A program made the translations under genes and the position numbers. A model generated the notes under the pieces. The model made no database searches and was not told the origin of the DNA. It saw nothing but the letters and a program-made list of their open reading frames with translations. 64,000 bases of DNA from Acidithiobacillus montserratensis. Lineage in GTDB: Bacteria; Pseudomonadota; Gammaproteobacteria; Acidithiobacillales; Acidithiobacillaceae. The stretch lies in NCBI RefSeq assembly GCF_018853465.1, contig NZ_JABBOU010000051.1, positions 1 to 64,000 on the forward strand, in the 5' to 3' direction. Below, in pieces: positions 35,051 through 52,409 of the stretch (positions are counted from its first letter, which is position 1; each line of letters opens with the position of its first letter).

Positions 35051-37378
35051 CTAGAACACCATCTTGACTGTACCAAAGAAGGACCGGGGCATCATAGGTT
35101 CTGCCTCTAGGTAATTCCCGGTAAACCCATTAATATAAGGAAATTGTTTTTCCAAAACTGATGCTTCTGAATTCAATAGGTTTACTCCGCTTAAACTCAA
35201 GGTCACATTTTTGATACCATACTGATGTATGGCAAAGGTGTGGGCAAGATTGAAATTCATTGTAGCATAGGCAGGCATGCTCAGGTCTGTCGGAGCACCA
35301 GTGCTTGCCTCAATATATTGCGGGCCAACCAAATTTCCATAAAGCCTTGCCCGTGTATGCATATAATGACCGAGAATGCCGACACCAGCAAGGTATGTAG
35401 GCGTATTTGGGCGTGGCTCACCAATACTGGTTGATACACCATATTGACTGGAAGAATTAGATGTATATTTTGCTTCCTGAATTGAATAATTACCATATAG
35501 TGACAAATAGCCATCCACAGCATATGCAGTAGCAATATTTATCCCTTGATATTGGGAAGATCCAATATTGTATTCATATGTCAATCCGGTATTGGTATCA
35601 TAATATGAACTAAAAGTATTCCCAAAATCAGATCTATAAAAAGAAATACTGGCGTCTATCGGACCCTTGTTATACGCCATACCAAATTGATAGGTGTTCA
35701 CCACCTCTGGCTTGATGGTTACAGGCGTCGCTGGGGAGGTTGTAGTGGCATTGCTGTCCGCAGCATAAAATGCTGTAATATTTGGATATTTATACCCCTT
35801 GGCATAATTGGCATACAACGTGACTCCCTTTAGGGGCTTATACTGAACGCCTACATAAGGACTGACTTCGCTATATGTTTTTCCACTAGTAGCACCAACA
35901 GTATAATAATATCCTGGGACATCATTAATATGCGTTGAAATAGTTTCATATTTTACTCCCGGAGTGACTGCGAAATTGCTGGTTGGCTTAATTTTGGCTT
36001 GAGCATAAACTTTGCCATAAATTCGCCAACCATGTTCGTCCCATAGATTGTTATACCCCGGAACCTCGGGCACATCGGGAGAACCATAAACATAATTACG
36101 AGAATTATACGTAGAAACAACACCCAGACCACCCGCCTTGAGATTAACATATCGGTTGAACCACTCAAAAGACGGATTCAACCCAAAGGTATTGGTTGTA
36201 TAAGTATAACTATGATAGTTATCTCCATTAATCGTCTGCGCCTGACAAGCCGCAGAATCATTCCCCATAAAATCATTTCCTGAATATTGACAAACAGTTT
36301 CTGCCGGATTTAGATAAAATGTGACGAAACTGTTATATTGCGAATTGGCATTGGGATTTACATACTCAAGCCTGTGCGAATTGGTATAAGCATAAAATCC
36401 TTTGAAACCAAATACCGAATGCGCTGAGATGAGTGTTTTATTTTGCAGAATGGCCATCATGTGTTCAGCCTGGCTGTTGGCATAGGTGAAAGATGTAGGC
36501 CATTGATAATATGGCCCATACTGAGCAAGCAAAGCTTTAGGCATCCGCGCAGCTGTAGCCCCCTGATTTTTATTCAACAAAAAAACCAAGGACCATTTCG
36601 AAGTTGGCGAAATTTGTGGCAAATCATAAGCTGCATAATATGAATATTCACGATCCGGACTATGATCCAAATAACCCGCAGTCTGACGCGAGGAAAATCT
36701 TAGCAAAAGATTACCATAACCAGCCGCTGACCCTGTATTGATTTCTGCCCCATAATTACGTGTAGCAAAAGATCCATATCCTGCAAACACCGACTCATAC
36801 TGCTTGGATGAAGGAACTAAGGGCAAATAATTAATATTACCACCTATTGCCCCCACGGCGTTTACGTCCGGAGGCGGGGTACCATAAGTCACCTGAATAC
36901 CCGATGTTTCTCCTAAAGTTACCGGGATCAGATTGGTCAAATCCGCATAGTTGTTATTCCCACCAGACAACCCACCATTAAAAAGATCAGCAATGGGTAA
37001 ATTGTCAAATGTATATCCGACTTGAGTCTGCGAGAAACCACGCACCGATATATGGGTTTTGACCCCGATAGGATTTGTACTGGTTGCGTTGATTCCGGGC
37101 ACAAAGCTCAGAATCGTAGAAGCATTCTGCGTAGACTCCTGGCCATGAAGAAACTTTTTGGGGATCAAGGCTGTTTCCGCTCCGTAAACTGGCTTCACCT
37201 TGGTCAGGGCTGCCTTATCGACCATACGCAGCAAGTCTTTTGATACCTGCTTTATTTTATAAACCTTCCTAGTAGGAGTTGTTCTGTTAGCAGCATGAAC
37301 CGGTATAAATCCACTACCTAACAAACCTGCTGCCACTAAGATACTGTGCCGTAGCAATTGTTTTGGGGATCTCGTCAT
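35051..37378 (-). CDS. TonB-dependent outer-membrane receptor 2
   Basis: A 775-residue receptor with a signal peptide ending near residue 29 (GFIPVHA), a plug domain (ASTILSFVPGINATS, VRGFSQTQVGYTFDNLPIADL, NAVGAIGGNINYLP) and a Tyr/Asn-rich beta-barrel ending in the canonical terminal Phe (VKMVF). It shares the barrel block VPGYNNLWDEHG with receptor 1 (there NIDGYNNAWNEHD), so the two appear to be paralogues of one subfamily. AGGAGT precedes the ATG. It is divergent from a LysR gene across a palindrome-containing gap. The substrate is probably another nucleobase or ureide, inferred from context only. Confidence 0.92.
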   Translation of the reverse strand: MTRSPKQLLRHSILVAAGLLGSGFIPVHAANRTTPTRKVYKIKQVSKDLLRMVDKAALTKVKPVYGAETALIPKKFLHGQESTQNASTILSFVPGINATSTNPIGVKTHISVRGFSQTQVGYTFDNLPIADLFNGGLSGGNNNYADLTNLIPVTLGETSGIQVTYGTPPPDVNAVGAIGGNINYLPLVPSSKQYESVFAGYGSFATRNYGAEINTGSAAGYGNLLLRFSSRQTAGYLDHSPDREYSYYAAYDLPQISPTSKWSLVFLLNKNQGATAARMPKALLAQYGPYYQWPTSFTYANSQAEHMMAILQNKTLISAHSVFGFKGFYAYTNSHRLEYVNPNANSQYNSFVTFYLNPAETVCQYSGNDFMGNDSAACQAQTINGDNYHSYTYTTNTFGLNPSFEWFNRYVNLKAGGLGVVSTYNSRNYVYGSPDVPEVPGYNNLWDEHGWRIYGKVYAQAKIKPTSNFAVTPGVKYETISTHINDVPGYYYTVGATSGKTYSEVSPYVGVQYKPLKGVTLYANYAKGYKYPNITAFYAADSNATTTSPATPVTIKPEVVNTYQFGMAYNKGPIDASISFYRSDFGNTFSSYYDTNTGLTYEYNIGSSQYQGINIATAYAVDGYLSLYGNYSIQEAKYTSNSSSQYGVSTSIGEPRPNTPTYLAGVGILGHYMHTRARLYGNLVGPQYIEASTGAPTDLSMPAYATMNFNLAHTFAIHQYGIKNVTLSLSGVNLLNSEASVLEKQFPYINGFTGNYLEAEPMMPRSFFGTVKMVF

Positions 37379-37488
37379 TATATTTACTCCTGTCGCTTAC
37401 AAGTCATTTTAGTTAAGCAGCATACATGCCATGCTTAGCCCCATTCATCTTGGCTTATTCATCTCACTTAGCCGCGCAACACTTTGCG

Positions 37489-37526
37489 TTATATTGGTGC
37501 AATAATATTTTTTTGCACCAATATAA
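37489..37526. promoter_or_regulatory. Large inverted repeat between TonB receptor 2 and lysR
   Basis: A perfect 14-bp inverted repeat, TTATATTGGTGCAA (37489-37502) and its complement (37513-37526), surrounds a 10-nt AT spacer. Beyond a 2-nt bulge the pairing continues with TTTGCG and CGCAAA. It lies in the 278-bp divergent gap about 110 bp from the receptor ATG and about 130 bp from the LysR ATG. The position fits an operator for the divergent LysR protein or another dimeric regulator better than a terminator. Confidence 0.55.
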
Positions 37527-37656
37527 TGCGCAAAAGAAAATCATCGATTCCATGCTCTCCATGGTGAATTTTCATGATTATGTTATAGTATACCGTCCGT
37601 TTATAGTGTTGTTTTATTGTTTAACCGTTCGAAAAAAATCAACGCGAGGCCTCTTC

Positions 37657-38559
37657 ATGAAACACCTACGTCTTTTCAAATACGTGGACGCTATTGTCCG
37701 TGAGGGCTCTGTCAGACGGGCTGCGGATAAATTGCACATCACGGCTTCGGCTTTGGATCGGCGAATTCAGGACTTGGAAGACGAACTGGGCGCGAGCATT
37801 TTTGAGCGCCACCCCCGTGGAATGCGACTCTCAGCGGCAGGCGAGGTATTCTTGGTTTACGTGCGCAGACATTTATCGGATATGCAGCGTCTTCGCTCAG
37901 AAATCGATAGCCTCAATGGTTTACGGCGTGGACAAGTCTCCTTGGCAGTCAGCCCAGCCTTGGCCCGAGAATTTATCCCACGGATCATTAATAACTTTCG
38001 CGCCCAGTATCCGGGGGTTTCTTTCGCGGTGAATGTTGCCAAACATGCGGATGCCATCCGCGCCTTATTGGCGTTTGAGGTAGATCTTGTGGTCATAGTT
38101 GCCCCTCCGCGCCATCCTGATGTCATTGATCTCGCTATATCAGAGCAGCCTCTGGTTGCCACTATGGATAGTCAACATCCTTTAGCAAACAAAGAACTAC
38201 TCCGTTTCAGCGATTGCGTGCAATACCCATTGGTCATTCCTGCGCCGGGACTCACCTCCCGAGAAATGCTGGAATCCGCCTTGCATAGCGTCGCCTCGGA
38301 AATTCAAATTGCTGCCGAAACCAATTCCTACGAAATCATGCGCGGAATGTTGCAGAACTCTGAAAACATCGGCTTTGTGATTTCCACAGGAACACCCAAA
38401 CTACAAACCAATGAGCAGATTGTTTACAAAGCTATTTCGGCATTAGATATACGTCCGGTACCACTAGTCTGTGCGCAACTGAAAAGTCGGGGAATTTCTG
38501 TTGCTGCGGCGCGTTTTTCTAATTGTATTGCTGAAGAGTTGAATGAAATTTCAATTTAA
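37657..38559 (+). CDS. LysR-family transcriptional regulator
   Basis: A 300-residue regulator with a winged helix-turn-helix at the N-terminus (GSVRRAADKLHITASALDRRIQDLEDELG) and a periplasmic-binding-protein-like effector domain (RGQVSLAVSPALAREFIPRI onward). The ATG at 37657 has a GAGG site upstream; the long open frame before it is AT-rich promoter DNA. It is divergent from TonB receptor 2 and converges, 3 bp away, on the HpxW-like gene that ends the purine/barbiturate operon. Likely targets are both neighbours; the effector is unknown. Confidence 0.9.
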   Translation: MKHLRLFKYVDAIVREGSVRRAADKLHITASALDRRIQDLEDELGASIFERHPRGMRLSAAGEVFLVYVRRHLSDMQRLRSEIDSLNGLRRGQVSLAVSPALAREFIPRIINNFRAQYPGVSFAVNVAKHADAIRALLAFEVDLVVIVAPPRHPDVIDLAISEQPLVATMDSQHPLANKELLRFSDCVQYPLVIPAPGLTSREMLESALHSVASEIQIAAETNSYEIMRGMLQNSENIGFVISTGTPKLQTNEQIVYKAISALDIRPVPLVCAQLKSRGISVAAARFSNCIAEELNEISI

Positions 38560-38562
38560 GTT

Positions 38563-40194
38563 TTAGATATCTACGCCCATCACGCCGCCATCACTCCGCG
38601 GATCTGTTGCTGCTGCAAAAGTTGATTTCTCAGCATTTGCAAATCCAACCATGCCGGCGTGACCCATGACATCACTATAATCGGGTACCCATGCAACCAT
38701 GTGGCCCCAGCTCTGCAAGTCGTTGTATACCTGCTTTGGATATCGGTGTTCTAGCCGTAAACCTGCATTGCGTTCTCCCCAGGTACGGCCGTATAACCAA
38801 CGGGGGCTGGCTACAGCTTCTGCCAGTGACAAGCCAAAGTGTTTAGCCCGCATGAGGATGGCAGCCTGTGTCTGCGGTTGTCCATCTCCTCCCATGGTGC
38901 CATAGGCTAGTTGTACTCGTTTATTTTCTGCATACATAGCCGGATTCAAGGTATGGAAAGGACGTTTGCCGGGTTCCAGGATATTAATATGCCCCGGGGT
39001 CAATGAAAAAGCGCAGCCCCGGTTATTCCAAAGTACCCCGGTGTCACCCGCTACAACACCACACCCAAATTCATGATAAAGGCTTTGAATAACACTGACC
39101 ATACGACCTGTAGCATCAGCAACGCCAAACCATACCGTATCGCCAGCACCAGTATCTAGGGCAGGTGAAGGCTGAATATGGCGCGGCTCAATCAAAGCGG
39201 CTATGTCATCCAGGAAGCTTGCTTTTAACAGGGCAGACAGATCGAAATCATGATAATGAGGGTCCGCTATGACCTGATCTCGCCAACCAAAAACCTGCTT
39301 CGTGATTTCTACACTGCAATGAATAAAATCAGCACCCCAATGATCTTCAAAGCTCGTTTTAAAACGATCTAACAGTGCCAGAATCATAAGCGAAGCCAAT
39401 CCCTGAGTTGGTGCAGGTAAATTCAAGACTTCACCATGACCAAACGGAACCCGTAATGGTTGCATCCATTCAGTCCTGAAGCTGCTCATATCTTTCTCTG
39501 TCAAAAGACTACCTGAAGCGCGCAAGCCTTTGATCATTTTTTCTGCTAGATAACCTTGATAAAAGCTCTCAGGACCATTTTCTGCAATCTCTTTTATGGT
39601 TCTACCTAGCGCTTTTTGGGGCCAGACTGCATCCGGTTTGGGAATTTCACCATTCGGCATAAAAGCATGACTGAATCCTGGTTGCTTATATAAAACTGGC
39701 ACATAATGGGTTAAGGTGGCTGTCTGATTAGGGCTGATCGGAAAACCACGTAGCGCATGTTCATAAGCCGTTTCCAGAAGGTCGCCCCAAGACAAACTTC
39801 CGTGCCAGGAATTTCTGGAATAATCATAAGCAGTTCCCCAACCAGCGACTATTCCAGGGACCGTCAATGCTGACCTTCCCCCTCGAAAAGGAATTTCTTG
39901 AATATGCGCATCACAAAAAGTATGGGCTGAGTATTTATGACCAGCCGGACCAGCAGCAGCCAAACCCATCGCTGATTCTGAATTTCCATCGGAAATCAGC
40001 CAGAATGCGTCGCCGCCCAAACCATTCATATGGGGATAGACCACAGCCAGGGTTGATCCCACGGCAATGGCGGCCTCTATGGCATTCCCCCCCCTTCGCA
40101 ACACTTCTCCACCAGCTTCTGCAGCCAGAAAATGAGGAGCACTGACTATACCGCCAGTTGCTTGTGCATATTTTTGAGGCGTAATGACTGTCAT
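38563..40194 (-). CDS. hpxW: Gamma-glutamyltranspeptidase-family amidohydrolase, HpxW-like
   Basis: A 543-residue Ntn-hydrolase of the GGT family. It has no signal peptide, so it is cytoplasmic like HpxW and unlike secreted GGT. Autocleavage is expected before Thr353 in GAGDTVWFGVAD. The best-matched characterised relative is Klebsiella HpxW, an oxamate amidohydrolase (oxamate to oxalate and ammonia) acting after the hpxXYZ products; here hpxX, hpxY and hpxZ homologues precede it in the same operon. It may act on oxamate or on malonamate, the one-carbon-longer analogue. The ATG overlaps the upstream stop as ATGA. It is the final gene of the leftward operon. Confidence 0.8.
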   Translation of the reverse strand: MTVITPQKYAQATGGIVSAPHFLAAEAGGEVLRRGGNAIEAAIAVGSTLAVVYPHMNGLGGDAFWLISDGNSESAMGLAAAGPAGHKYSAHTFCDAHIQEIPFRGGRSALTVPGIVAGWGTAYDYSRNSWHGSLSWGDLLETAYEHALRGFPISPNQTATLTHYVPVLYKQPGFSHAFMPNGEIPKPDAVWPQKALGRTIKEIAENGPESFYQGYLAEKMIKGLRASGSLLTEKDMSSFRTEWMQPLRVPFGHGEVLNLPAPTQGLASLMILALLDRFKTSFEDHWGADFIHCSVEITKQVFGWRDQVIADPHYHDFDLSALLKASFLDDIAALIEPRHIQPSPALDTGAGDTVWFGVADATGRMVSVIQSLYHEFGCGVVAGDTGVLWNNRGCAFSLTPGHINILEPGKRPFHTLNPAMYAENKRVQLAYGTMGGDGQPQTQAAILMRAKHFGLSLAEAVASPRWLYGRTWGERNAGLRLEHRYPKQVYNDLQSWGHMVAWVPDYSDVMGHAGMVGFANAEKSTFAAATDPRSDGGVMGVDI

Positions 40195-40799
40195 GGCAAT
40201 CGTCTGGCTCGGATCCGAGAGGAGCACCATTCTCTCTGGGTATTAAGTCGAGGAAATGAATGATCCATTTTTCTGTTCAAACGCTTATATTGTTCTGGAG
40301 GCAAATAACTGAGCTGTTTATCCAGGCGGGCATCGGGATTTTCCCATAATAGTGCTTGTAAATTTCTTGCCATAAAACCCGATAACATCAACGGATGCCC
40401 ACCACTCCCACAGTCATTGACCATGCTGGCCGCAGCAATTGTTTGATTTTGCATGGTGCGCCGCAAACACTGCAAGTCACTCACCGATGGTAATACCGTA
40501 TCTGTTTGTACTATCAGTAGCGGATTACGGATGTTTTTTACGGCTCTTTGCAATGTACTGAATGGTCCCTGGACCGCCTTGAAATGGTGCCTAAAACTGA
40601 CACGACGATGCAAACAGCGATGGACCCGTTGTGGCCGAAGACCCGTCACTACGATAACGGGTGCAAAACCTGCGTATCTGAGCCGATCTACTTGTCGATC
40701 AATCCAGGAACGCAGGTCGCCGGGAACTTTTCGACAAGATTTGTGTAAAGTTCCCGAACGAGAAGACCGACCACCGGCCAAAATGACGGCTACTGCCAT
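40191..40799 (-). CDS. MobA/MocA-like nucleotidyltransferase
   Basis: A 202-residue protein starting with AVILAGGRSSRSGTLHK, the NTP-binding signature of molybdenum-cofactor guanylyl- or cytidylyltransferases, although the usual Met before Gly is Ser here. An IVQTDTVLPS segment replaces the usual Asp-containing ALGDQP metal site. A GSGGHPLML stretch matches the GHP motif of MocA. It may attach CMP to molybdopterin for the molybdenum hydroxylase encoded upstream. The basic, Arg-rich composition is unusual, and activity is uncertain. Confidence 0.65.
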   Translation of the reverse strand: MAVAVILAGGRSSRSGTLHKSCRKVPGDLRSWIDRQVDRLRYAGFAPVIVVTGLRPQRVHRCLHRRVSFRHHFKAVQGPFSTLQRAVKNIRNPLLIVQTDTVLPSVSDLQCLRRTMQNQTIAAASMVNDCGSGGHPLMLSGFMARNLQALLWENPDARLDKQLSYLPPEQYKRLNRKMDHSFPRLNTQREWCSSRIRARRLP

Positions 40800-40805
40800 G
40801 CAAAC

Positions 40806-41192
40806 TTAAGTATTTTTCGGCATCAGACTGACATGGGCGGCAACCACCCGCCAGCCCTCTGGGGTACGTAACCAGGTCTGACTTTGCCGGCCGTGCACCT
40901 GATCACGTCGAAACTCTGTATTTGCGGTAGCAAAATCATAGCCATAAGTAGTTATGGTGGTATTGATTAATTCGCGATTCAGCGCTGGGGTCGGACGTGT
41001 TGCGCGAAAATCCGCAATTGCAGCATAACCATAGAGGTTCTCAGCTACTCCATAACGCAAAGTATGCTCGCTATTCCAGAATAATTCATCTAATACTTCC
41101 ACATCATTTTCAACCAAGGCTTTTTCGTAGCGTAGAAAAACTTCCTGCACTTCTTTAAATACTTCCGGCGCATTAATTTCAACATAACTCAT
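40806..41192 (-). CDS. hpxZ: HpxZ/AtzH-like DUF3225 protein
   Basis: A 128-residue SnoaL/NTF2-like protein with the DUF3225 pattern: [33 protein letters not shown] at the start, [17 protein letters not shown] in the middle and [23 protein letters not shown] at the end. HpxZ belongs to the Klebsiella oxalurate cluster; the homologue AtzH of Pseudomonas sp. ADP is a decarboxylating amidohydrolase acting on 1,3-dicarboxyurea. The ATG at 41192 has an AAGGAAAA site and overlaps the amidase gene by 14 bp; the open extension upstream lies within that gene. Confidence 0.87.
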
Positions 41193-42603
41193 AGGGGTTT
41201 TCCTTCTGGTTTTGTGGAAGCGGACTGGTAAAACCGAATAACTCAAGATATCGTGCCACTCTCAAGGCTTTTTTTTCCTGCCAGGGTGCCGCAATAATCT
41301 GAACTCCAATGGGCATGGCTCCTGGTGTAGATACGGGGACAACAACTACCGGCAAGCCGATAAAGGAAAGGGGCTGGGTATATAATCCCAAATGCGGGCG
41401 GACCAGCATGCTGTGCCCGTCCAGTTCCATAGATCTCTGGCCGATAAGCGGAGCAGTCATCGGTGTAGCAGGTGCAATCAGCAGATCAAATTTTGCAAAA
41501 ACCATTTGCATTTCTCTACGGTAATAACTGCGGAACCGCTGGGCTTGAATCACCCAGGAAGCAGGTAGTAAGGCACCAGCGAGCATACGATCACGCACGT
41601 CAGGATCGTAGTCCGCAGCATACTGTCGTAAACGTCCCAGATGTAAATTACTACTCTCTGCATTGGTAATCAGGTAGGCGGCCGCACGGGCTTGGGCTAC
41701 ACTGGCAATTTCTATTTCTTGAGTCACCCCAAGACAATCTATCACTTTCTGCACAGCTTGCTGCGCTTGTTCAGTAGCTTGTGTACGGAAATAACCCCCC
41801 GCAAGCGCAATTTTTAGATCGGCAATGCCGTCATCAAGGCCATCGCTAGTCAATTCACATTCCTGCTGCGCAGATACAGGGTCCTTAGGATCATAGCCTT
41901 GTAACACGTCATAAGCCATGGCCAAATCCATTACGTTACGTGCCATAGGCCCCACATGATCGAGGCTAGGACAAAACGGAAATGTACCCGCACGCGACAG
42001 ACGACCATATGTGGGTTTCAACCCAAAAATTCCACAGAGCGATGATGGCACACGTATTGAACCGTTCGTGTCAGAACCTAGAGCAACCGGTACCATCCCA
42101 CCAGCTACCGCGGCACCACTGCCACCACTGGACCCGCCCGTCATGCGGGATAGATCATGAGGATTTCGTGATGGGCCGTAATGCACATTCTCTCCTGTAA
42201 AGTCATAGGCATACTCACCCATGTTGAGCCCACCAAGAAGGACGGCCCCAGCAGCATTCATCTTATGAATCAGCGTGGCATCCACTGTTGCCGGGGCGTC
42301 CTCCCGATTGATTTTGGAACCCGCCAAGGTCACTTGCCCTTCTATATCAAAAAGATTTTTAACCGCAAATGGCACACCAGCCATGGTGCCGGGATCTTCG
42401 CCCCTGGCGACTTTCCTATCTATCTGTTCAGCCTCATGGAGCGCTCGATCTTCGGAAACGTAGGTAAAAGCATTGAATTGAGTATTTGTGGATTGAACAT
42501 ACCGCAAAGATTCTTCAACCACCGCAACGGCTTTCCATTCACCAAGCCGCACTCTTCGGGCAATTTCTCGTGCCTCTGAAAAACTATGAAATAAATCGCT
42601 CAT
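41179..42603 (-). CDS. hpxY: AtzE/HpxY-type amidase
   Basis: A 474-residue amidase-signature enzyme. The Ser-cisSer-Lys triad is visible: K82 (FAVKNLFD), the cis-Ser in GGSSGGSG near residue 158, and the nucleophile S182 in [13 protein letters not shown]. In Pseudomonas ADP, AtzE deaminates 1-carboxybiuret in complex with the small protein AtzG; in Klebsiella, HpxY is tied to oxalurate. Here the partner gene (hpxX/atzG) directly precedes it, with ATGA overlap. By analogy it could deaminate ureidomalonate, the carbon analogue of 1-carboxybiuret; that is an inference. GatA-type activity is unlikely in this context. Confidence 0.88.
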
Positions 42604-42800
42604 GGCCGAAACACCGTAGCAAGATCTTCAGTAAAATCGAGGGGAAATGCTTCAAGGACCCCCGCAAGATGGGCACTGATATTGAAGTAATTACGAATAT
42701 CTGGATACCAAGCGGTCTCTACTGTCAAGTCCATAGCTTCAAACGTGATCTGCATGTATTGTTCAATCATCGCCTCGCTGAGAGGCCTTAAAGTATTCAT
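42600..42800 (-). CDS. hpxX: HpxX/AtzG-like small subunit (DUF4089)
   Basis: A 66-residue protein of the AtzG/HpxX family. AtzG binds AtzE as a small structural subunit, a relic of the GatC-GatA relationship, and is needed for the stability of the amidase. Visible family traits are the short helical N-terminus, the PDIRNYFNISAHLAGVLEAFPL segment and an acidic tail with EDLATVFRP. It overlaps xdhC and the amidase gene by 4 bp each, implying translational coupling and stoichiometric synthesis. Confidence 0.85.
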   Translation of the reverse strand: MNTLRPLSEAMIEQYMQITFEAMDLTVETAWYPDIRNYFNISAHLAGVLEAFPLDFTEDLATVFRP

Positions 42801-43741
42801 GAAAATACTCCTTTATGGCGTAACTGTAACAACTCTGCCAAAATACTGACCGCAATTTCCATTGGTTTTTTGCCTATTCCAGGCAAACCCATAGGCATGT
42901 GTAGAAAATCTGGAATAGGGCGAGCAGCCCGGATAAGCTGATGTCTAAAACGTGCCGCCTTGGATTCACTGGCAATCACACCGAGATATAACAGTGGCTG
43001 GTCGGCAAAATATTCCAGTAGAGCATAATCCAGAGCATGACTATAGGTCATAATCAAAACTATATTGGCACATTTCAGCTCCTTAATAACGCTTTGATCA
43101 CAACTATTGGTCAATACAACTTCTTTTGGAAAATCGGCGGGATCAGTCCATTCTGGCCGATCATCATAAAGTGTGATCTGAAAATCCAGCCCAACAGCAA
43201 GGCGCGTAAAAGCGCGTCCGACATGCCCGGCACCAAAAATCCAAACGGTCTGTTGCTGAGGTGCCGGGAGCAAAAAATAATCACCATGCACCGAAAATTC
43301 AGGAACTGAAGCAGTTTCAAGCAAGTTAAGCGCCACGGAATCTCCCAATCTCTGTCCATTGTTGGTAATCCCTGCTATCAAATGCAAATATCCTCGCTCA
43401 TCCACATGATAAGAGCGGGCTGCTCCTGAAGCATATAGCTCTGCAAAAAAAGGCTGGACATCTACTAAGGCGATAGCCACACGACCACCGCAACACTGAT
43501 CATCTTTTGTACCCAAAACAAATTCTACACGCGCATGCCAGTTTTTTTTATCCCTATTTCTCAACAAATTGAGAACAGAGTATTCCATATGGCCACCGCC
43601 TACAGTACCCAAAACGTGATTATCGTCTCGCAAAGCAACGCTTCTACCTATCGCCGTGGGCGCCGATCCCTGTACTTGCACGACCAAGGCCTCTGTAATT
43701 ACCCGTGAATGATGTTTGGAGAGTTGTATCAGGGTATTCAT
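42797..43741 (-). CDS. xdhC: XdhC-family molybdenum cofactor maturation factor
   Basis: A 314-residue protein that binds molybdenum cofactor, helps its sulfuration and inserts it into xanthine-dehydrogenase-type enzymes. The N-terminal XdhC/CoxI domain has GSAPTAIGRSVAL, GTVGGGHME and the DQCCGGRV cysteine pair; a C-terminal Rossmann domain follows (VWIFGAGHVGRAF near residue 168). It overlaps the genes on both sides by 4 bp. Its presence supports a functional sulfurated Mo hydroxylase encoded three genes upstream. Confidence 0.93.
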   Translation of the reverse strand: MNTLIQLSKHHSRVITEALVVQVQGSAPTAIGRSVALRDDNHVLGTVGGGHMEYSVLNLLRNRDKKNWHARVEFVLGTKDDQCCGGRVAIALVDVQPFFAELYASGAARSYHVDERGYLHLIAGITNNGQRLGDSVALNLLETASVPEFSVHGDYFLLPAPQQQTVWIFGAGHVGRAFTRLAVGLDFQITLYDDRPEWTDPADFPKEVVLTNSCDQSVIKELKCANIVLIMTYSHALDYALLEYFADQPLLYLGVIASESKAARFRHQLIRAARPIPDFLHMPMGLPGIGKKPMEIAVSILAELLQLRHKGVFS

Positions 43742-44811
43742 GGGGCGATTCCGATTATTGCTACTGGACCGCCCCCCTGGGGCCCTTGATGCTCAGCACG
43801 GGTAGAGACGTAAACACCTGTGTCTCCAAGCACTCCTGCCAGCAGTGCTGCCACAACGCAACGGGAATAGCGCATATCCGAAATATCGGCATCCGTCCAC
43901 ATCGTATGCCGACGATTCCTAATATAATTCCCAGGATGAGCATCGGACTTGGCAAATACGCCGACAATTTTTTTGGAATCACCTGCAGTGAGTTGTCCAT
44001 TCACAGGCTTTATTCCCAGCTGCTTAAGAACGCCATAAATACTTGGTACATCAATGATATCGCGCATCAAGCCATGAGCTATCGCCAGATCGCCTTCCCA
44101 GCAATCGGAATTCGCAAAAAGTATGATTTCAGAACGTATCAAGCATGGTTTTGCAGAGACGCTGGCTCTACTAGAATACAAAGACCAATCACTTTGAATA
44201 GCGGCATCAGATAACTGATTCTCGCTTATCTCACCCAGCGCCAAGGCTACACCAAGGGCTGAGGCGGCTCGCGACCAGGCCATATCACAACGGAGCGCTG
44301 TTGCGGGCGAAGAAACTGGGGGAATAGCTGCTTTTATTTGCACCAGATGCACATCATCGGCAGTTACCCGTAACTCCTGCATCAAATTTACCACTACTCG
44401 AGCAGTCTCATGAATCATAGCCATGCGTCCTACTTCATCTGGCGAAAAATTTCTGCTCGAGCCAGTTGCAATGGCCAGTCTTTTGCTTGACCGTTTTAAT
44501 GTCGACGGCTGACCAATTACAGAAAACACCAAAAGATGCGGTGCAGTTACCCCCTCACTTCCTCCCGAAAAAGACAATACGATCCTTTCTTCAACCTGCT
44601 CCGGAAGACAATCCAAAAAAGGGGCCAGAAGATAACCCAGTGCCTGAATAGACAAATTCCTTGTGAAATCATTTATCCCGCCATTACCTTCCGTTTTGCC
44701 GATAATGGCAACAATATTCTGGGGATGTATTTCTTCACGGGCAATGGCATCCACCAAACCCGACATGTCAGCGGGACTTTGAGTAAAAAAACGAGCCACT
44801 TCAGTGCGCAC
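43738..44811 (-). CDS. Ring-opening amidohydrolase, barbiturase/cyanuric acid hydrolase family
   Basis: A 357-residue member of the small AtzD/TrzD/barbiturase family, which opens six-membered cyclic ureides with three Ser-Lys dyads. Candidate lysines are K39 (IIGKTEGNGG), K160 (VQIKAAIP) and K288 (VFAKSDAHP); matching serines lie in the SFSGGSEG stretch, in SSRASVSA near 216, and in VSTRAEHQGP near 336. The C-terminal EHQGPQGGGPVAII is diagnostic. Start is GTG with AGGTGAAG upstream. Barbiturate, cyanurate or a related ureide are the possible substrates; with a Mo hydroxylase and no triazine genes nearby, barbiturate is favoured. The product would be ureidomalonate. Confidence 0.85.
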   Translation of the reverse strand: MRTEVARFFTQSPADMSGLVDAIAREEIHPQNIVAIIGKTEGNGGINDFTRNLSIQALGYLLAPFLDCLPEQVEERIVLSFSGGSEGVTAPHLLVFSVIGQPSTLKRSSKRLAIATGSSRNFSPDEVGRMAMIHETARVVVNLMQELRVTADDVHLVQIKAAIPPVSSPATALRCDMAWSRAASALGVALALGEISENQLSDAAIQSDWSLYSSRASVSAKPCLIRSEIILFANSDCWEGDLAIAHGLMRDIIDVPSIYGVLKQLGIKPVNGQLTAGDSKKIVGVFAKSDAHPGNYIRNRRHTMWTDADISDMRYSRCVVAALLAGVLGDTGVYVSTRAEHQGPQGGGPVAIIGIAP

Positions 44812-44829
44812 GAAACTTCACCTCAATGC

Positions 44830-45408
44830 TTAAAACGGCACTTTCAAAGTTCGACCCGTACGTCTGCGAATATCAATTTTATAGACATCTCCTGCATCCA
44901 TTTCATCTGCACTTTTAGCATTGGCCAGGGCGTGCACCACTTCATCGGAGTTCATGGTTAAAACTGTCACTGGATCAACGATGGCCATTGGAAAATCATG
45001 CCAAGTACCCGCATGAATCATAACGCCATGACCTGCAGGAATACGAAAGGCACACACATCTTCCAAGCAAGGGGCATCATGTCCGGTAGCTTGATTCGGC
45101 TTGCCTAACACCATAGCAAATGGTGACGTACCAAGCCCGACAAAAATTTGGGTCATATTCAAATGCCGTTCTAGCCAGGTAATTTCCGGACTGCGGTGTG
45201 AAATACGTGCTGTGCGGATCACCGCCTGTCCAGTATACTTAAAATCCAGATTTTGCCCTTCTTCAACGCTCCCTTTATAAAAAGGAATACTCAATCCTGG
45301 TCGGTATACCGCTTCAGTAATCATCACCCCATAGTCTTGCATATTTTCTGGATTAGCATCTACAAAGGGAATTTCCATTACCATATTATCTTCTAATTGG
45401 GCGCCCAT
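44830..45408 (-). CDS. Ureidoglycolate-lyase-like protein (AllA superfamily)
   Basis: A 192-residue cupin-like protein with segments typical of the ureidoglycolate lyase family: EDVCAFRIPAGHGVMIHAGTWHDFP near residue 125 and VLTMNSDEVVHALANAKS near 155. The family member AllA splits ureidoglycolate to glyoxylate and urea. No allantoinase or allantoicase accompanies it here, so another ureido acid, possibly ureidomalonate, may be its target; this is speculative. GAGGAGAGTAAT precedes the ATG. It lies between the FAD subunit of the Mo hydroxylase and the barbiturase-like gene, with gaps of about 20 bp. Confidence 0.7.
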   Translation of the reverse strand: MGAQLEDNMVMEIPFVDANPENMQDYGVMITEAVYRPGLSIPFYKGSVEEGQNLDFKYTGQAVIRTARISHRSPEITWLERHLNMTQIFVGLGTSPFAMVLGKPNQATGHDAPCLEDVCAFRIPAGHGVMIHAGTWHDFPMAIVDPVTVLTMNSDEVVHALANAKSADEMDAGDVYKIDIRRRTGRTLKVPF

Positions 45409-45428
45409 ATTACTCTCCTCTTTGCTCG

Positions 45429-46280
45429 TTATTCAACGTGTTGTATGGCATCCCAGATCAGACGGGATGTGGTTTCCAGACGATATTCTGCGCTTGAGCG
45501 AATATCATCAACCGGTGCAATATCATGCGTTATACCTTTCCGAACTATTGCCGCATCAATCTGCTTGATCTTCTTTCCCTGTAAATAATGACTTACAGTG
45601 GGCAAACTACAGGGAATCGCTGCTACGCTGGCAATACCAAACCGGGCCTGGACAATGGTCTTAGCTGCATCTATCTGAAAACAAGCGGCAACACCAACTT
45701 TTGCAATGGCCTGCGCGGCACGGGTACCTACTTTCCGGTATAAACTGACGGATTTATCGGGAGGATAAGGAATATGCACCGCAACAAGTAACTCCGCTGC
45801 AGCCAAAGCAGTTTTGCGATAAGCGACATGAAAGGCGGCATAATCCATGATGCGCGATCCCTGTTGGCCGGCAATTTCAAGACTGGCCCCATATGCCAGT
45901 AATACGGGAGCATTATCTGCAGCGGGAGAGGCATTACATAGGTTCCCACCCAGAGTGGCACGATTCTGTATAGGTGCAGCACCGGTCACTGCAGCAGAAG
46001 CAGCCAACATTGGCCAGAATTTTTGGACTTGTGGATGGCGTCGCAAAGCGCTCAGCGTCACCCCCGCTCCGATGCGAATACCCTTGTCATGAACTTCGAT
46101 CTCTTTTAAATCCGGGATGGCGCTCAAATCTAACCAATCCCGGTTTTTTTGATGCATACTCAATCGCTGTGTCACCATGACATCCGTGCCCCCGGAAATG
46201 ATCTGATAATGATCTAGGGGCATTTTAGAGAGTAAGCTTATGGCTTCACCCACCCGTTGAGGACGCACCCATTCAACCAT
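45429..46280 (-). CDS. Molybdenum hydroxylase FAD-binding subunit (XdhB/CoxM-like)
   Basis: The 283-residue medium subunit has FAD-binding signatures IISGGTDVMVT near residue 30 and NRATLGGNLCNASPAADNAP near residue 105, plus the C-terminal CO-dehydrogenase flavoprotein domain. It passes electrons from the Fe-S clusters to NAD+ or another acceptor. The ATG at 46280 has AGGAGTTACTC directly upstream and overlaps the Fe-S subunit gene by 8 bp; an earlier in-frame ATG lies inside that gene. Confidence 0.92.
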   Translation of the reverse strand: MVEWVRPQRVGEAISLLSKMPLDHYQIISGGTDVMVTQRLSMHQKNRDWLDLSAIPDLKEIEVHDKGIRIGAGVTLSALRRHPQVQKFWPMLAASAAVTGAAPIQNRATLGGNLCNASPAADNAPVLLAYGASLEIAGQQGSRIMDYAAFHVAYRKTALAAAELLVAVHIPYPPDKSVSLYRKVGTRAAQAIAKVGVAACFQIDAAKTIVQARFGIASVAAIPCSLPTVSHYLQGKKIKQIDAAIVRKGITHDIAPVDDIRSSAEYRLETTSRLIWDAIQHVE

Positions 46281-46731
46281 GAGTAACTCCTGTGGCAGCC
46301 TGAAGAACCGCTTCATAAATGCGACCGTAACCCGTACAGCGACATAAATTCCCGCTGAGTCCCTCCCGTATTTCTTCTAGCGTGGGCTGCGGATACTCAC
46401 TCAGCAATGCCGTTGCTGCCATCATCATTCCCGGGGTACAAATTCCACATTGGGCGGCAAAACAGGCATGAAAAGAGGCCACCAACGGACTGTCAGAAGG
46501 TAAGCCTTCTATCGTCACAATGTCGGCGTTATCCATTTGCCCCAGAGGAAGCAAACAACTGTTGAGAACCTGACCATTGACTAAAACTGCACAGGCCCCG
46601 CACTCCCCCTCACCACAGCCCTCCTTGGTCCCTTTCAAACCCAGTTCATCACGCAATACGTCCAGGAGGCGGCTATCTGGCTTTGCCTGCACTTGCATTT
46701 TCTGACCATTTATCTGCATGCTTACTTTCAT
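46273..46731 (-). CDS. Molybdenum hydroxylase 2Fe-2S subunit
   Basis: The 152-residue small subunit carries a plant-type [2Fe-2S] site ([14 protein letters not shown] with a later NSC) and the alpha-helical [2Fe-2S] site ([10 protein letters not shown] and CRCTGY) that contacts the molybdenum cofactor. Its ATG at 46731 overlaps the large-subunit stop as ATGA. Together the three genes encode an (alpha-beta-gamma)2 enzyme of the xanthine dehydrogenase/CO dehydrogenase family. Confidence 0.94.
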
Positions 46732-48992
46732 TGGGACACTCTCTCTGAACAAGCCAGTTTCATCAACAATTCCGGCATCACGGGGATCTGATCAATGTTC
46801 ATTTTTAATGCCTGTTGAATAGCATTCACAATGGCCGGCGCCGGGCCATCCATGGGAAGCTCTCCTACCCCCTTTGCACCTTTGGGACCGGCACCCAATC
46901 CTTTCTCCATCAATACCACTTGTATAGGCCCGATATCCGCAGTGGTTGGGATAATATAATTAGTCAAACGATCATTGGCCATCACCCCAACATCGTTCCA
47001 GAGCACGTTTTCATAGAGTGCATAACCAATACCCTGCACTACCCCCCCCTCGATCTGTCCCTGTACAATTTGCGGATGTACCGCATGCCCTATTTCCTGG
47101 ACGGCAGTAAAGTTCAGGATACGGGTTTCATAAGTTAATTTATCAATTTCCACTTCGGCAATATATGCAGCCCAAGCGAAACTGGAATAAGCTCGACCAG
47201 TAAATTTATTTTCATCCCAAAGCATTTGCGCGGGCGGTTGATAGCTCGCTGACACCAACAAATCTTTTTTAGACTCCTGCATCCGGAGACAGGCATCAGC
47301 AAATTCATCAACTGAATATAGCTTGGAAAGTCCACCTTCAGTCATTAGCTTCTGCAATAAAAGATTGGCTGCTCTTTCAACTAACTCACCAACCACCATA
47401 CATGTGCGAGAAGCAACAGTCGGTCCGGAATTAGGCACTCTTGTTGTATCCGTTTGCGCCAGGTGAATCTTGTCCATGGGTAATTGCAGAGCATCAGCAG
47501 CGATTTGTACTAAGGTGGTCGCAGCACCCTGGCCCATCTCCGTATTTGAGCACAGAATCTCTACCTGACCGTTGCCATGAGCTTGCAACAATACTCGCGA
47601 AGCCAGATATAATTCACCATTCCCAGTGAAGCCTGCTCCGTGTGCAAAGGTTGCCAAACCAATGCCGCGAACAGTACCATTATTTTGTTTATTCCAATGT
47701 TTAAATTCTGCCTGACGCTCATAATATTGACTTACCCGAAGTGCTTCTTCGAGAGCATCCTGAGCAAAGCAATCGTTTTGAAGAATATCACCTGTCGGAC
47801 TGACATCCCCACTCCTTAACAAATTTTTTCGACGAAACTCTGCAGGATCCATTGCTAACTTTGCAGCGAGCTGATCCATCGCCACTTCCAGAGCAAAAAT
47901 ACTCTGCGGAGCGCCAAACCCGCGAAATGCTCCAAAAGGAGGATGATTAGTAGCTATGGCACGCCCTCTAACCCGAATATTTTTGCAGAAATAAGGTCCA
48001 GGAGCATGAATAACTCCACGAGACAGGACGACCGGGCTTAGCGTCCGGTAAGCACCACCATCAATGGCAAAATCCATGTCGATAAATTGCAGTTCACCAG
48101 CACGGTTTGCACCAAGGCGAAGCATCGTGCGTGAAGGATGCCGTTTAGGTGTAACCCGCATATCCTCACCGCGTTCATAAACCAGTTTGACTGGTTTCCC
48201 ACCAGCTTTGATGGCCAGCAAAGCAGCATGACAAGCAATTACCGAAGGATAATCTTCTTTACCGCCAAAGGCACCACCCGTTGTAGTTTGTACAACGCGC
48301 AGTAGGTCTTTACTTAATCCCGTACATTGCTCCAAAGCGTCCAAAACATAATAAGGACATTGCATCGAACCGTCGATTCTCAGTACCCCATCATTCTGCA
48401 GGATGGCAATCATACCTTGAGGTTCTATATAAAGCTGTTCCTGTGAAGGAGTAATGAACCTTGCATCGATAAAACATTCAATTTCATCGAAAGACTTATC
48501 AACATCACCTTTCTCAAGAAGATAATCTGAATATACATTGCCTGGAATTATCTTATTTTCGGCAGAGAGAGCTTCATCAATATCAAAAACTGGATGCGCT
48601 AGAGGTACTTCGTGAACGCGAATATGAGATAAAGCTTTTTTGAGCATATCCGGTTCAGAATGTCCCAACAGAACCAACGCCTCCCCCGCGTGACGAAATA
48701 CCCGATCCACCAATACTGGCTGATCATTCTCCAGCAGCTTGACAGCATTAAGCCCCGGAATATCTTTTGCTGTGACAATAATGAATTCAGACCAGTCAAG
48801 CGCTGGGTCAAAAAAAATCTCTTCGACTACACCACCAGCACTTGCAGTACGCAACGTCGTTGCATATATGACATCGTTTAATTCAATATCATCTACATAC
48901 ACAGCCGTCCCTAAGATCTTAGAAAGACCGTCAACACGCTTTGGTTGAGCTTTGTCAACTACCGCGCCAACATCTCTCTTATATATTTCCAT
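46728..48992 (-). CDS. Molybdenum hydroxylase large subunit (xanthine/uracil dehydrogenase-like)
   Basis: This 754-residue catalytic subunit binds molybdopterin. Recognisable segments are GGAFGGKED near residue 235, FRGFGAPQSIFALEVAMD near residue 350 and GAKGVGELPMDGPAPAIVNAI near 720, where the Glu is the conserved catalytic base. It may oxidise hypoxanthine/xanthine, or uracil/thymine to barbiturates as in actinobacterial uracil dehydrogenase. The barbiturase-family gene three positions downstream favours the second, while the adjacent adenine and guanine deaminases favour the first; one enzyme could serve both. The ATG at 48992 has AAGGTGAG upstream. Confidence 0.88.
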   Translation of the reverse strand: MEIYKRDVGAVVDKAQPKRVDGLSKILGTAVYVDDIELNDVIYATTLRTASAGGVVEEIFFDPALDWSEFIIVTAKDIPGLNAVKLLENDQPVLVDRVFRHAGEALVLLGHSEPDMLKKALSHIRVHEVPLAHPVFDIDEALSAENKIIPGNVYSDYLLEKGDVDKSFDEIECFIDARFITPSQEQLYIEPQGMIAILQNDGVLRIDGSMQCPYYVLDALEQCTGLSKDLLRVVQTTTGGAFGGKEDYPSVIACHAALLAIKAGGKPVKLVYERGEDMRVTPKRHPSRTMLRLGANRAGELQFIDMDFAIDGGAYRTLSPVVLSRGVIHAPGPYFCKNIRVRGRAIATNHPPFGAFRGFGAPQSIFALEVAMDQLAAKLAMDPAEFRRKNLLRSGDVSPTGDILQNDCFAQDALEEALRVSQYYERQAEFKHWNKQNNGTVRGIGLATFAHGAGFTGNGELYLASRVLLQAHGNGQVEILCSNTEMGQGAATTLVQIAADALQLPMDKIHLAQTDTTRVPNSGPTVASRTCMVVGELVERAANLLLQKLMTEGGLSKLYSVDEFADACLRMQESKKDLLVSASYQPPAQMLWDENKFTGRAYSSFAWAAYIAEVEIDKLTYETRILNFTAVQEIGHAVHPQIVQGQIEGGVVQGIGYALYENVLWNDVGVMANDRLTNYIIPTTADIGPIQVVLMEKGLGAGPKGAKGVGELPMDGPAPAIVNAIQQALKMNIDQIPVMPELLMKLACSERVSQ

Positions 48993-49042
48993 AATAAATC
49001 TCACCTTAAATACGTCAAAACCACTGACGAAATATTCGCACA

Positions 49043-50071
49043 TTAATTACTGTTATTGTTTTTTTTATCAACATCCAGAATATGTTTAATAATCGCCTTA
49101 GTTACTTTGACGGCGTTTTCTTCGGCCAACTCACTAGCATAAAGATCTCCAGTTTTCCAGATTTGCTCCTCAGTTTTCCCTGGTGGCGGAATATCAATAT
49201 CTGAGATACCACGAACTGACAAATAATTATTTTCCAAACCAAATCGAGATAAAGCGGCAACATCACCAAGATCTTCCATGGCTGTATTGGTATACGCAGC
49301 TTGGCCATGAGTATAGAGATTTACAATCTTTTCAGCTATGGCCTGATTTTCTTTACCAATCCAAAAGTCATCGCCTGTAATCGTCGCCCCAACCATAATT
49401 TTAGGCTGAGTAGAAATGGAAAAAGTGTGATCCAGCTTTTTAGCTTCGGAAGTATTCTCCAGTTTTACACCTGCAGATGCTTTCACCGCCATATTCAATA
49501 TTTGTGGATTAATCTTATAGGCAAGATTCTCCAGTGTATTTTGTGTGAAATTGGCACAATCACCAGGGTGTGAGTAATCATCACATCCTGGCGGCGCCCA
49601 AGCCAACGTTTTTTTATCACTCAAATAGTGATGACCAAATGCCCACGAAACAACCCAGCTATTAATATAAACACTACCGAGTGCTGATTCTTTATTATCA
49701 ACACCACCGGCTATGCCACTACGTATAAATATGGTTTTTCTCACGTTCAGTTCAGGGTCTTTCACCATACTTGTAACCGATATAGCTGCGTTCATTTCTC
49801 CTTCGCCTGTTTCAGTTACGCAAACCCCGTGTTCATTACATATCAGGGGTCGATATAATCCAGGAATATTTATGCTTTTATACTGATATGATTTTTGACT
49901 TTTCCATGCATGCCATTCTGGTGGGAAAGCTGTTAATACGATCACTTTTGGTTGCATAATCAGTGATTTTTGACCTGCTGCTGGGTTAGCAAAAGCCTCG
50001 TTTGCTATTATTGCCAGCCCTACGAAAAAGGGTACCATGCCAATTCTAATATTCTTATCTAAAAATCTCAT
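49043..50071 (-). CDS. Exported NUP-family purine nucleosidase-like protein
   Basis: A 342-residue protein with a clear signal peptide (cleavage near residue 28, NEAFA before NPAAG). The body matches the purine nucleoside permease (NUP) family, which structurally belongs with nucleoside phosphorylases: VIVLTAFPPEWHAW, GEGEMNAAISVTSM, IFIRSGIAGGV, YTNTAMEDLGDVAAL and LSVRGISDID. No membrane helices other than the signal are present, so despite the name it is probably a periplasmic or secreted nucleosidase. It sits between the Mo hydroxylase and the adenine deaminase genes, 21 bp from the latter. GGAAGAAATT precedes the ATG. Confidence 0.83.
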   Translation of the reverse strand: MRFLDKNIRIGMVPFFVGLAIIANEAFANPAAGQKSLIMQPKVIVLTAFPPEWHAWKSQKSYQYKSINIPGLYRPLICNEHGVCVTETGEGEMNAAISVTSMVKDPELNVRKTIFIRSGIAGGVDNKESALGSVYINSWVVSWAFGHHYLSDKKTLAWAPPGCDDYSHPGDCANFTQNTLENLAYKINPQILNMAVKASAGVKLENTSEAKKLDHTFSISTQPKIMVGATITGDDFWIGKENQAIAEKIVNLYTHGQAAYTNTAMEDLGDVAALSRFGLENNYLSVRGISDIDIPPPGKTEEQIWKTGDLYASELAEENAVKVTKAIIKHILDVDKKNNNSN

Positions 50072-50092
50072 AATTTCTTCCTTTTCCTACTA

Positions 50093-51124
50093 TTAAGATA
50101 GAAAACCATCAACATAATTTTCTAGTGCTGAAAACATTTGCTTTTTTTTCTCTGTGGTACAGAAAGAAGCTTCTATAGCATTTTTTTGCAGTAAAATTAT
50201 ATCATTGATATCGCGTTCTAGACAGTTTACAGTGCTGATGATGTTTTCATTCAGATACCCCCCGAAATAAGCCGGATCATCAGAATTAATGGTCACATGT
50301 AAACCTGCATCTATCATTTTACCCAAATTATGAGATTCAAGATCGGGGAAAACCTTGAGTTCCACATTGGAAAAAGGACACACAGTCAACGGAATACGTT
50401 CTTCCAACAATCGCTCAACCAAACCAGAATCCTCTAGACAACGCACACCATGATCAATACGTTCCACCTTCAAGAGGTTCAAGGCTTCCCATATATATTC
50501 TGGCGGTCCTTCTTCACCTGCATGTGCAACTCGATGTAGTCCTAAGTTTTTAGCCCTCTGAAAAACCTCTTGAAATTTACGAGGAGGATTCCCAAGCTCT
50601 GCCGAATCCAAACCGATTCCTGCAATTCCACCAATTTTCATGGCGTCGTGCAGAAGACTAACCGTTGACTCTGCGTCACGGTCTCTTTCGAAACAGAGAA
50701 TCAGCGCACTACTTATCCCCCATTCACATTCTGCTTCTGCAAGGGCTGAACGAATCCCCCCCATAACCACATCTAGGGCAATCCCATGAGACAAATGTGT
50801 CTGAGGATCAAAAAAAATCTCCGTATGCATTATTCCTTGCTGTTTACAGCGCTGCAGATAAGCTTTAGTTAATTCATAAAAATCAAGCTCTTCACGTAAA
50901 ACCGAGGCTCCTAGATAATAGACATTAAGAAAACTTTGTAAATCCTTAAACTGGTAAGCAGATCTGGCGCTCTCGATATCTTTATAGGGCAAATTGATTT
51001 CATTCCGCTGCGCAAACCTCAGTAACATCTCTGGCTCAAGGGTTCCCTCGATATGAAGATGTAATTCTACTTTGGGCATATGCTTTACGAAGCTTTCAAA
51101 CTCTATTTTGCTTTCTTCTTTCAT
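50093..51124 (-). CDS. Adenine deaminase-type member of the adenosine deaminase family
   Basis: The 343-residue metal-dependent deaminase has all metal and catalytic motifs: VELHLHIEG, HAGEEG, DHGVRCLED and NSDDPAYFGGY. The last motif, with PAYFGGY, is the form seen in yeast Aah1 and bacterial adenine deaminases of this family, whereas adenosine deaminases usually read TDDP followed by other residues. It would thus turn adenine into hypoxanthine, which agrees with the presence of nucleosidases that act earlier. The distinction from adenosine deaminase is by motif memory and not by alignment. Confidence 0.82.
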   Translation of the reverse strand: MKEESKIEFESFVKHMPKVELHLHIEGTLEPEMLLRFAQRNEINLPYKDIESARSAYQFKDLQSFLNVYYLGASVLREELDFYELTKAYLQRCKQQGIMHTEIFFDPQTHLSHGIALDVVMGGIRSALAEAECEWGISSALILCFERDRDAESTVSLLHDAMKIGGIAGIGLDSAELGNPPRKFQEVFQRAKNLGLHRVAHAGEEGPPEYIWEALNLLKVERIDHGVRCLEDSGLVERLLEERIPLTVCPFSNVELKVFPDLESHNLGKMIDAGLHVTINSDDPAYFGGYLNENIISTVNCLERDINDIILLQKNAIEASFCTTEKKKQMFSALENYVDGFLS

Positions 51125-51168
51125 TCGGTAAAACGCTCCTAATGTTTGTTATAGACTCAGATGAATAC

Positions 51169-52401: not shown

Positions 52402-52409
52402 CTTTTCTA

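Follow-up and report, generated by a model that had tools for sequence, protein, structure and literature searches.

A putative hydrolytic purine-catabolic gene series around a Group IV cyclic amide hydrolase in Acidithiobacillus

Cyclic amide hydrolases of the AtzD/barbiturase (Toblerone) family have been grouped by residues at signature positions: cyanuric acid hydrolases carry Arg195, Thr321, Arg325, Gly345 and Gly346, barbiturases (Group VI) carry Asn195, His321, Lys325, Val345 and Ser/Ala346, and Group IV, made up of Acidithiobacillus and Sulfobacillus proteins, is unlike both, and the section that describes it names no activity (Peat 2013, PMC3758960). The motif SGGxExQGPxGGGP has also been given for cyanuric acid hydrolases (PMC9118981). 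Hydrolysis of the N1-C6 bond of xanthine to 4-ureido-5-imidazolecarboxylate is known from clostridia (PMC3519856; PMC12507026), whose gene cluster was identified in 2023 (Tong 2023, as cited in PMC12507026); 0.1 per second is given as the kcat of their xanthinase (PMC12507026). Here we analyse a 64,000-nucleotide stretch of Acidithiobacillus montserratensis (contig NZ_JABBOU010000051.1, positions 1 to 64,000; hereafter the window), in which a Group IV protein, called here the ring-opener, is encoded within a long series of minus-strand genes. On the basis of sequence comparison we infer, giving the proposal an even chance, that this series is a purine-catabolic operon serving nitrogen scavenging, in which the ring-opener would hydrolyse xanthine; every substrate and product assigned below is a prediction of this kind.

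Family and signature of the ring-opener

The ring-opener belongs to the AtzD/barbiturase family according to its PF09663 match and its Toblerone fold. The three Ser-Lys dyads and three Arg residues (K42, R54, S85, K162, R195, S233, K296, R325 and S344) are kept in 175 of 175 aligned rows, i.e., the window protein, the 120 nearest proteins listed (of 3786 found, each truncated to 400 residues) and 54 fetched loci; these rows include duplicates, and seven loci (L001, L023, L033, L066, L067, L069 and L070) were dropped beforehand. When positions from 195 to 346 are given in the AtzD numbering of Peat 2013, the residues at 195, 321, 325, 345 and 346 are Arg, Met, Arg, Thr and Arg, which agree with the Group IV signature (Arg195, Met/Thr321, Arg325, Thr345 and Arg346). 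Thr-Arg thus stands at 345-346 instead of Gly-Gly, and Lys-Pro at 235-236 instead of Gly-Ile/Val/Gly. Thr-Arg was found in all the 120 listed nearest proteins and in 151 of the 175 rows; because this group was picked by Thr-Arg itself, the independent part is Lys-Pro, which is present in all the 151 rows and in none of the other 24, the latter having neither pair. In the ring-opener tree, a branch with 100/100 support splits 16 signature rows from 12 others. The Group IV signature is also present in proteins from Myxococcales, Nannocystis and Obscuribacterales records, and one genome (G402; L038, L065) has two AtzD-family proteins, one of Group IV and the other bearing the Gly-Gly pair typical of cyanuric acid hydrolases.

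The sequence-only reading of this locus had taken barbiturate as the substrate, and we have abandoned this assignment because the barbiturase and cyanuric acid hydrolase signatures are both absent: none of the diagnostic barbiturase residues is found, and the Gly345/Gly346 pair and motif of the cyanuric acid hydrolases are replaced, the ring-opener reading STRAEHQGPQGGGP. Xanthine shares with barbiturate the N1-C2-N3 stretch and the C6 carbonyl. With middling confidence we predict that the substrate is a purine, most likely xanthine, and not barbiturate. Class IV enzymes reportedly could not be tested by Peat and colleagues in 2017, for lack of expression. A full-text literature search, in which subscription papers were mostly outside the coverage, found no paper stating this pathway or a Group IV substrate.

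The gene series and the proposed route

The sequence-only reading covered the genes at 38563-48992, and their order, minus-strand orientation and coordinates have all been confirmed, as have their identities by family matches. These genes are, however, only the downstream part of a longer minus-strand series that starts at tonB and runs through the nucleobase permease, the two deaminases, the NUP protein and the molybdenum (Mo) hydroxylase to the HpxW-like gene, in the order of Table 1; the upstream half at 49043-54598, which had been omitted, alters the interpretation. A LysR gene on the opposite strand and then a TonB-dependent receptor gene follow the HpxW-like gene. Adjacent genes of the series overlap or have no more than a few tens of bases between them, which makes transcription as one unit likely, and because the same series was found again in other Acidithiobacillaceae, it is not a chance arrangement. 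Nearest relatives belong to Acidithiobacillus.

The purine assignment is founded on the adenine- and guanine-deaminase-like genes at the head of the series. The solved structures nearest to the former protein are 3ou8 (362.8 bits) and 3rys (356.6 bits), the next scoring 109.9 and all others 110 or less; both entries were deposited as adenosine deaminase, and we take them to be adenine deaminases. The protein is closer to these two than to classical adenosine deaminases, which places it with the adenine deaminases of the ADA superfamily. In an alignment with bovine xanthine oxidase (3sr6), the large subunit of the Mo hydroxylase has the same residues at the equivalents of Glu802, Arg880, Phe914, Phe1009 and Glu1261 (bovine numbering), which are presumably the purine-binding residues of xanthine dehydrogenase (XDH).

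Also in favour of xanthine are the Group IV signature that differs from those of both cyanuric acid hydrolase and barbiturase, the lack of urate-degrading genes of the families searched, and a relative without the Mo hydroxylase; the hydrolysis of its N1-C6 bond is, as noted above, known chemistry. As for the second, PF09663 and PF02738 each gave one match in the whole genome, in both cases within the cluster, and uricase, HIU hydrolase and OHCU decarboxylase gave none, FAD-type urate hydroxylase, membrane uricase and allantoinase not having been searched genome-wide; HIU hydrolase (PF00576) also gave no match in 25 further genomes, with and without the cluster. Control genomes gave matches in the searches for PF02738, uricase, HIU hydrolase and OHCU decarboxylase; for PF09663, none of the 14 controls matched.

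The relative in question, G419 (99% complete, two contigs), keeps the genes for TonB, the NCS1-type permease, the guanine- and adenine-deaminase-like proteins, NUP, AllA, AtzD, AtzG (60 bits), AtzE, AtzH, HpxW, LysR and the TonB-dependent receptor, and its cluster lacks the three Mo hydroxylase genes, XdhC and MobA. PF02738 and PF20256 have no match in the G419 genome; the sister genomes G416 and G422 do match. NUP directly adjoins the AllA-like gene and AtzD overlaps AtzG, so that the absence of the Mo genes is a clean one, and because G419 is placed among Mo-bearing relatives in the AtzE tree, the simplest history is that they were lost. The nine retained genes tested have open reading frames, and the proportions of nonsynonymous differences (pN, 0.08-0.33) against synonymous ones (pS, 0.68-0.82) are as expected under continued purifying selection; synonymous divergence (dS) was saturated in 12 of 18 comparisons, and therefore pN against pS was used alone. 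The rest of the pathway, the ring-opener included, seems to be kept without Mo-dependent oxidation. In the absence of any Mo hydroxylase, barbiturate could not be made from uracil by this enzyme in G419; its predicted guanine deaminase would still supply xanthine, the expected product.

In the proposed route, nucleosides or bases would be taken up with the aid of the TonB-dependent receptor, TonB, NUP and the NCS1-type permease. Guanine would be converted to xanthine by the guanine-deaminase-like enzyme, and adenine would be deaminated to hypoxanthine, which the Mo hydroxylase would oxidise to xanthine. The ring-opener would then open the N1-C6 amide to give 4-ureido-5-imidazolecarboxylate, on which the AtzE/G/H proteins, homologues of HpxX/Y/Z, would take the terminal ureido nitrogen, and subsequent loss of CO2 would leave 4-amino-5-imidazolecarboxylate with no urea released. 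The 4-ureido compound is a steric analogue of ureidomalonate, the ureido-bearing carbon adjoining the carboxylate-bearing carbon in both, and because of this adjacency the logic previously proposed for AtzE/G/H carries over: removal of the ureido nitrogen without urea stays plausible. No further clue to the substrate came from the genes near the closest AtzE relatives on plasmids.

Two other proteins may participate. The AllA-like protein, which is tied to the ring-opener, would act next to it on a ureido intermediate. Its best matches in a structure search were ureidoglycolate lyases, which does not settle the substrate. AllA-like matches were also found in five Novosphingobium plasmid records (30-34% identity); in the two stretches fetched nothing matched the AtzD or AtzE of the window, and these records were set aside. 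Where present, the HpxW-like Ntn hydrolase may take the next nitrogen (amidine or amide). It aligns in two pieces, at 42.7% identity, with unannotated DNA immediately upstream of hpxX in a Klebsiella record; the best single rows among solved structures were 2nlz (233.4 bits) and 2i3o (222.7 bits), and the two-chain entry 5hft, which we take to be Klebsiella HpxW, gave 210.1 and 195.9 bits. The small chain of 5hft begins to match at residue 365, and Thr365 in GDTVW is the expected nucleophile. NCBIfam would name the protein gamma-glutamyltransferase (361.8 against a cut-off of 357.85).

Conservation was examined in 16 Group IV loci besides the window, after leaving out L050 and L065 (repeats of L009 and L005) and short search loci; one locus (L006) is cut by its contig end. 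The ring-opener and the AllA-like protein were found in all 16 loci, the Mo large subunit in 14, AtzE and AtzH in 14, the HpxW-like protein in 12 and the guanine-deaminase-like protein in 11. The AllA-like gene adjoins that of the ring-opener in 15 of these loci, and P0089 is a fusion of the two proteins. L040 has the guanine-deaminase-like gene and no Mo hydroxylase in its stretch; L042 has neither, and its genome encodes elsewhere a fusion protein of 1286 aa from the XDH/aldehyde oxidase family. In L074 and L075, which belong to another family, the NUP gene lies inside the Mo hydroxylase run, with a Bmp-type ABC transporter near the former and an NCS1-type permease near the latter; the HpxW-like gene is missing from both stretches, and this enzyme may therefore be dispensable in places. 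The A. caldus megaplasmid has the core, the deaminases being absent from the stretch fetched. In Acidithiobacillus sp. HP-2 and G402 (L005, L065), the core likewise occurs without purine deaminases in the stretch, and transposase-like open reading frames flank it (seen by eye in L005), so that the core may be mobile.

More broadly, and somewhat below an even chance, Group IV Toblerone enzymes may be xanthine amidohydrolases whose origin is independent of the clostridial xanthinase. Together with the AllA-like, AtzEGH and HpxW homologues, they would make up a hydrolytic purine pathway, present in acidophiles and in some other bacteria, that bypasses urate, uricase and allantoin and releases nitrogen as ammonia and not urea. 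If this is true, a substrate would be given to a branch of the AtzD/barbiturase family to which the 2013 survey, in its section on that branch, gives none (PMC3758960), the cyanuric-acid/barbiturase fold would have a natural role in purine breakdown, and a urate-free purine pathway usable for nitrogen scavenging would be added to acidophiles. Many of the listed relatives of the ring-opener have been named 'cyanuric acid amidohydrolase' by their sources, and this name may be wrong.

Alternative substrates and other features of the window

The sequence-only reading had uracil oxidised to barbiturate by the Mo hydroxylase, barbiturate opened to ureidomalonate, and this converted by AtzEGH to malonamate and by the HpxW-like enzyme to malonate. 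The gene order like atzD-G-E-H, the presence of barbiturase in the same family and the shape of ureidomalonate, which suits AtzE, speak for this scheme. We nevertheless consider it improbable, because the barbiturase signature is absent, purine genes begin the series, a relative has no Mo hydroxylase at all, and there is already a likely route for uracil in a reductive pyrimidine cluster, apparently complete, at 19278-34359 of the same window. This cluster encodes uridine phosphorylase (NF008383, 295 against a cut-off of 262), cytidine deaminase (TIGR01354, 133 against 114), PreA (NF006183, 654 against 335), a PreT-like protein and dihydropyrimidinase (TIGR02033, 587 against 393). A carbon-nitrogen hydrolase occurs where beta-ureidopropionase is expected, and because its best NCBIfam match is below the cut-off (259 against 410), that role rests on its position. 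The cluster further encodes an omega-aminotransferase, a TonB-dependent receptor, a protein of the phosphorylase superfamily and two NCS1-type permeases that score below the NCS1 cut-off. An operon for cyanuric acid hydrolysis is still more improbable. The ring-opener does pass the NCBIfam cyanuric acid hydrolase model NF052395 (367.1 against a cut-off of 360), and its nearest solved structures are cyanuric acid hydrolases, but the motif of these enzymes is replaced, Lys-Pro stands at 235-236, no atzF-like gene was found among the genes scanned in 35051-54598, and the Mo hydroxylase would have no role.

Two alternatives stay closer to the purine assignment. The Mo hydroxylase may take xanthine on to urate, whose pyrimidine ring the ring-opener would open, the AllA-like protein and AtzEGH handling the two ureido groups. 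The XDH type of this hydroxylase, its presence in 14 of the 16 loci, the match between two ureido-directed proteins and two ureido groups, and the lack of oxidative urate genes of the three families searched in this genome all agree with such a variant, but in G419, which keeps the rest without the Mo hydroxylase, only imported urate could serve, and we regard the variant as unlikely. Slightly more doubtful still is activity of the ring-opener on some other cyclic amide, purine-derived or modified, such as a pteridine-like ring or a methylated or damaged base, the purine deaminases being merely co-regulated. Specificity may be plastic in a family that includes PDB entry 5hy0, titled 'orotic acid hydrolase', and five of the 16 stretches have no deaminases; xanthine is, however, the simplest substrate that the retained enzymes could make in the variants seen.

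Several points weigh against xanthine hydrolysis itself, besides the score on NF052395. The guanine-deaminase-like protein is below the NCBIfam guanine deaminase cut-offs (314.9 against 351 and 309.3 against 375.4), and the Mo subunits are below the equivalog cut-offs (for the large subunit, pucD 421 against 783.65 and XdhA 362 against 780). Both purine deaminases are absent from the stretches of L005, L042, L071, L074 and L075, although they may sit elsewhere in these genomes. The substrates of AtzE and HpxY are, to our knowledge, acyl-ureas and not aryl-ureas, the AllA-like step is unexplained in the proposed pathway, and an enzyme for the imidazole half was not recognised in the cluster. 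G419 is one genome; some of its divergence may be older than the loss of its Mo genes, and it may use an imported substrate.

The features of the series and its flank are collected in Table 1. Both nucleobase clusters are held in a low-GC stretch (16001-54000), with GC content at third codon positions of 0.31-0.50 in the genes measured. The corresponding values are 0.62-0.65 for flanking genes and, at the end of the stretch, 0.56-0.57 for the tonB and exbB-like genes. A tRNA-Arg gene (15727-15802) at the edge suggests an island; an exact copy of the 3' end of this tRNA (12 to 39 bases) was not found elsewhere in the window, so that no island boundary is given by a tRNA repeat. A 938-aa protein with a phosphoesterase match (PF04185; 16387-19203) is encoded beside the pyrimidine cluster and possibly frees nucleosides from nucleotides. 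The only Rfam match in the whole window at gathering thresholds was a tRNA, and no xanthine riboswitch was found.

Table 1. Genes of the series in the order of transcription, followed by the two genes beyond it
Feature	Coordinates	Strand	Match or remark
TonB-like protein	53837..54598	-	PF03544
NCS1-type nucleobase permease	52410..53813	-	PF02133, 68 bits
Guanine deaminase-like protein, predicted xanthine source	51169..52401	-	best solved match guanine deaminase 6ohb, 211 bits
Adenine deaminase-like protein (ADA superfamily)	50093..51124	-	NF006850 (named adenosine deaminase), 490 against 419
NUP family protein, predicted nucleoside-processing	49043..50071	-	PF06516, 164 bits
Mo hydroxylase large subunit, xanthine-dehydrogenase-like, predicted hypoxanthine to xanthine	46728..49043	-	PF02738, PF20256
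Mo hydroxylase 2Fe-2S subunit	46273..46752	-	PF01799, PF00111
Mo hydroxylase FAD subunit	45429..46316	-	PF00941, PF03450
AllA-like (ureidoglycolate-lyase fold) protein	44830..45408	-	PF04115, 41.6 bits, cut-off 23
AtzD-like ring-opener, Group IV Toblerone cyclic amide hydrolase, predicted xanthine amidohydrolase	43738..44811	-	PF09663, 405 bits, cut-off 25
XdhC maturation factor	42797..43741	-	PF13478, PF02625
AtzG/HpxX-like small subunit	42600..42800	-	PF13318, 31.4 bits, cut-off 24 (scored on 42600-42797; start of reading frame at 42800 as read from the DNA)
AtzE/HpxY-like amidase, predicted ureido deaminase	41179..42603	-	NF006631, 699 against 461
AtzH/HpxZ-like protein	40806..41246	-	NF033625, 195 against 135; PF11533
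MobA-like nucleotidyltransferase (Mo cofactor)	40191..40799	-	PF12804
HpxW-like Ntn hydrolase, gamma-glutamyltransferase family	38563..40230	-	PF01019
LysR regulator	37426..38559	+	PF03466, PF00126
TonB-dependent receptor	35051..37378	-	PF00593, PF07715

Comparison with known systems

The architecture had been likened to atzD-G-E-H with hpxW added, and homologues in the corresponding order bear this out. As in atzD-G-E-H-F of Pseudomonas sp. ADP, homologues of AtzD, AtzG, AtzE and AtzH follow one another in the same order; here, in contrast, the AllA-like and Mo hydroxylase genes precede AtzD, XdhC is placed between AtzD and AtzG, an HpxW-like gene is added, no atzF-like gene was found among the genes scanned, the ring-opener signature differs, and AtzE belongs to another clade. 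A Pseudomonas putida plasmid (L077) has an atzD-F-G-E-H-like operon with a gene for an SLC23-type transporter.

The suggestion that this cluster is the ancestor of the triazine operon was examined by phylogeny of AtzE and AtzD, and direct descent was not supported by either tree. In the AtzE tree, AtzE of pADP-1 groups with Klebsiella HpxY (100/100), and holding it with the acidophile clade was rejected by the approximately unbiased (AU) test (p 0.0076); holding pADP-1 AtzD with the acidophile AtzD rows was likewise rejected (AU p 2.75e-79). With its 21 rows, the AtzE tree argues against direct descent but does not give the complete history. In an earlier version, outgrouped by two distant amidases, the outgroup branches were very long and the root was weakly placed, and that version was not relied on. 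It has been proposed that some atzG-E-H cluster is older than the triazine operon (PMC6219798), which is compatible with both trees.

Homologues of Klebsiella HpxW, HpxX, HpxY and HpxZ, which handle oxalurate and oxamate, are found together in the present series, but the 13 kb stretch of Klebsiella has no annotated ring-opener or Mo hydroxylase, and purine deaminases are encoded upstream here. In the oxidative pyrimidine pathway, the oxidation is of the Mo type and ureidomalonase is an amidase-family enzyme. The Rhodococcus pathway of this kind (barbiturase, ureidomalonase) resembles the present one in that a Toblerone-fold ring-opener acts on an oxidised base (PMC3758960); it differs in that the barbiturase signature is absent here, reductive pyrimidine genes are nearby and one relative has no Mo hydroxylase. 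The clostridial xanthinase pathway has in common with our proposal the first reaction, its intermediate and a guanine deaminase upstream (PMC3519856); the ring-opener here is a Toblerone-fold protein. With Group IV itself (Peat 2013), the ring-opener has in common the residues at all five signature positions as well as the genus, Acidithiobacillus.

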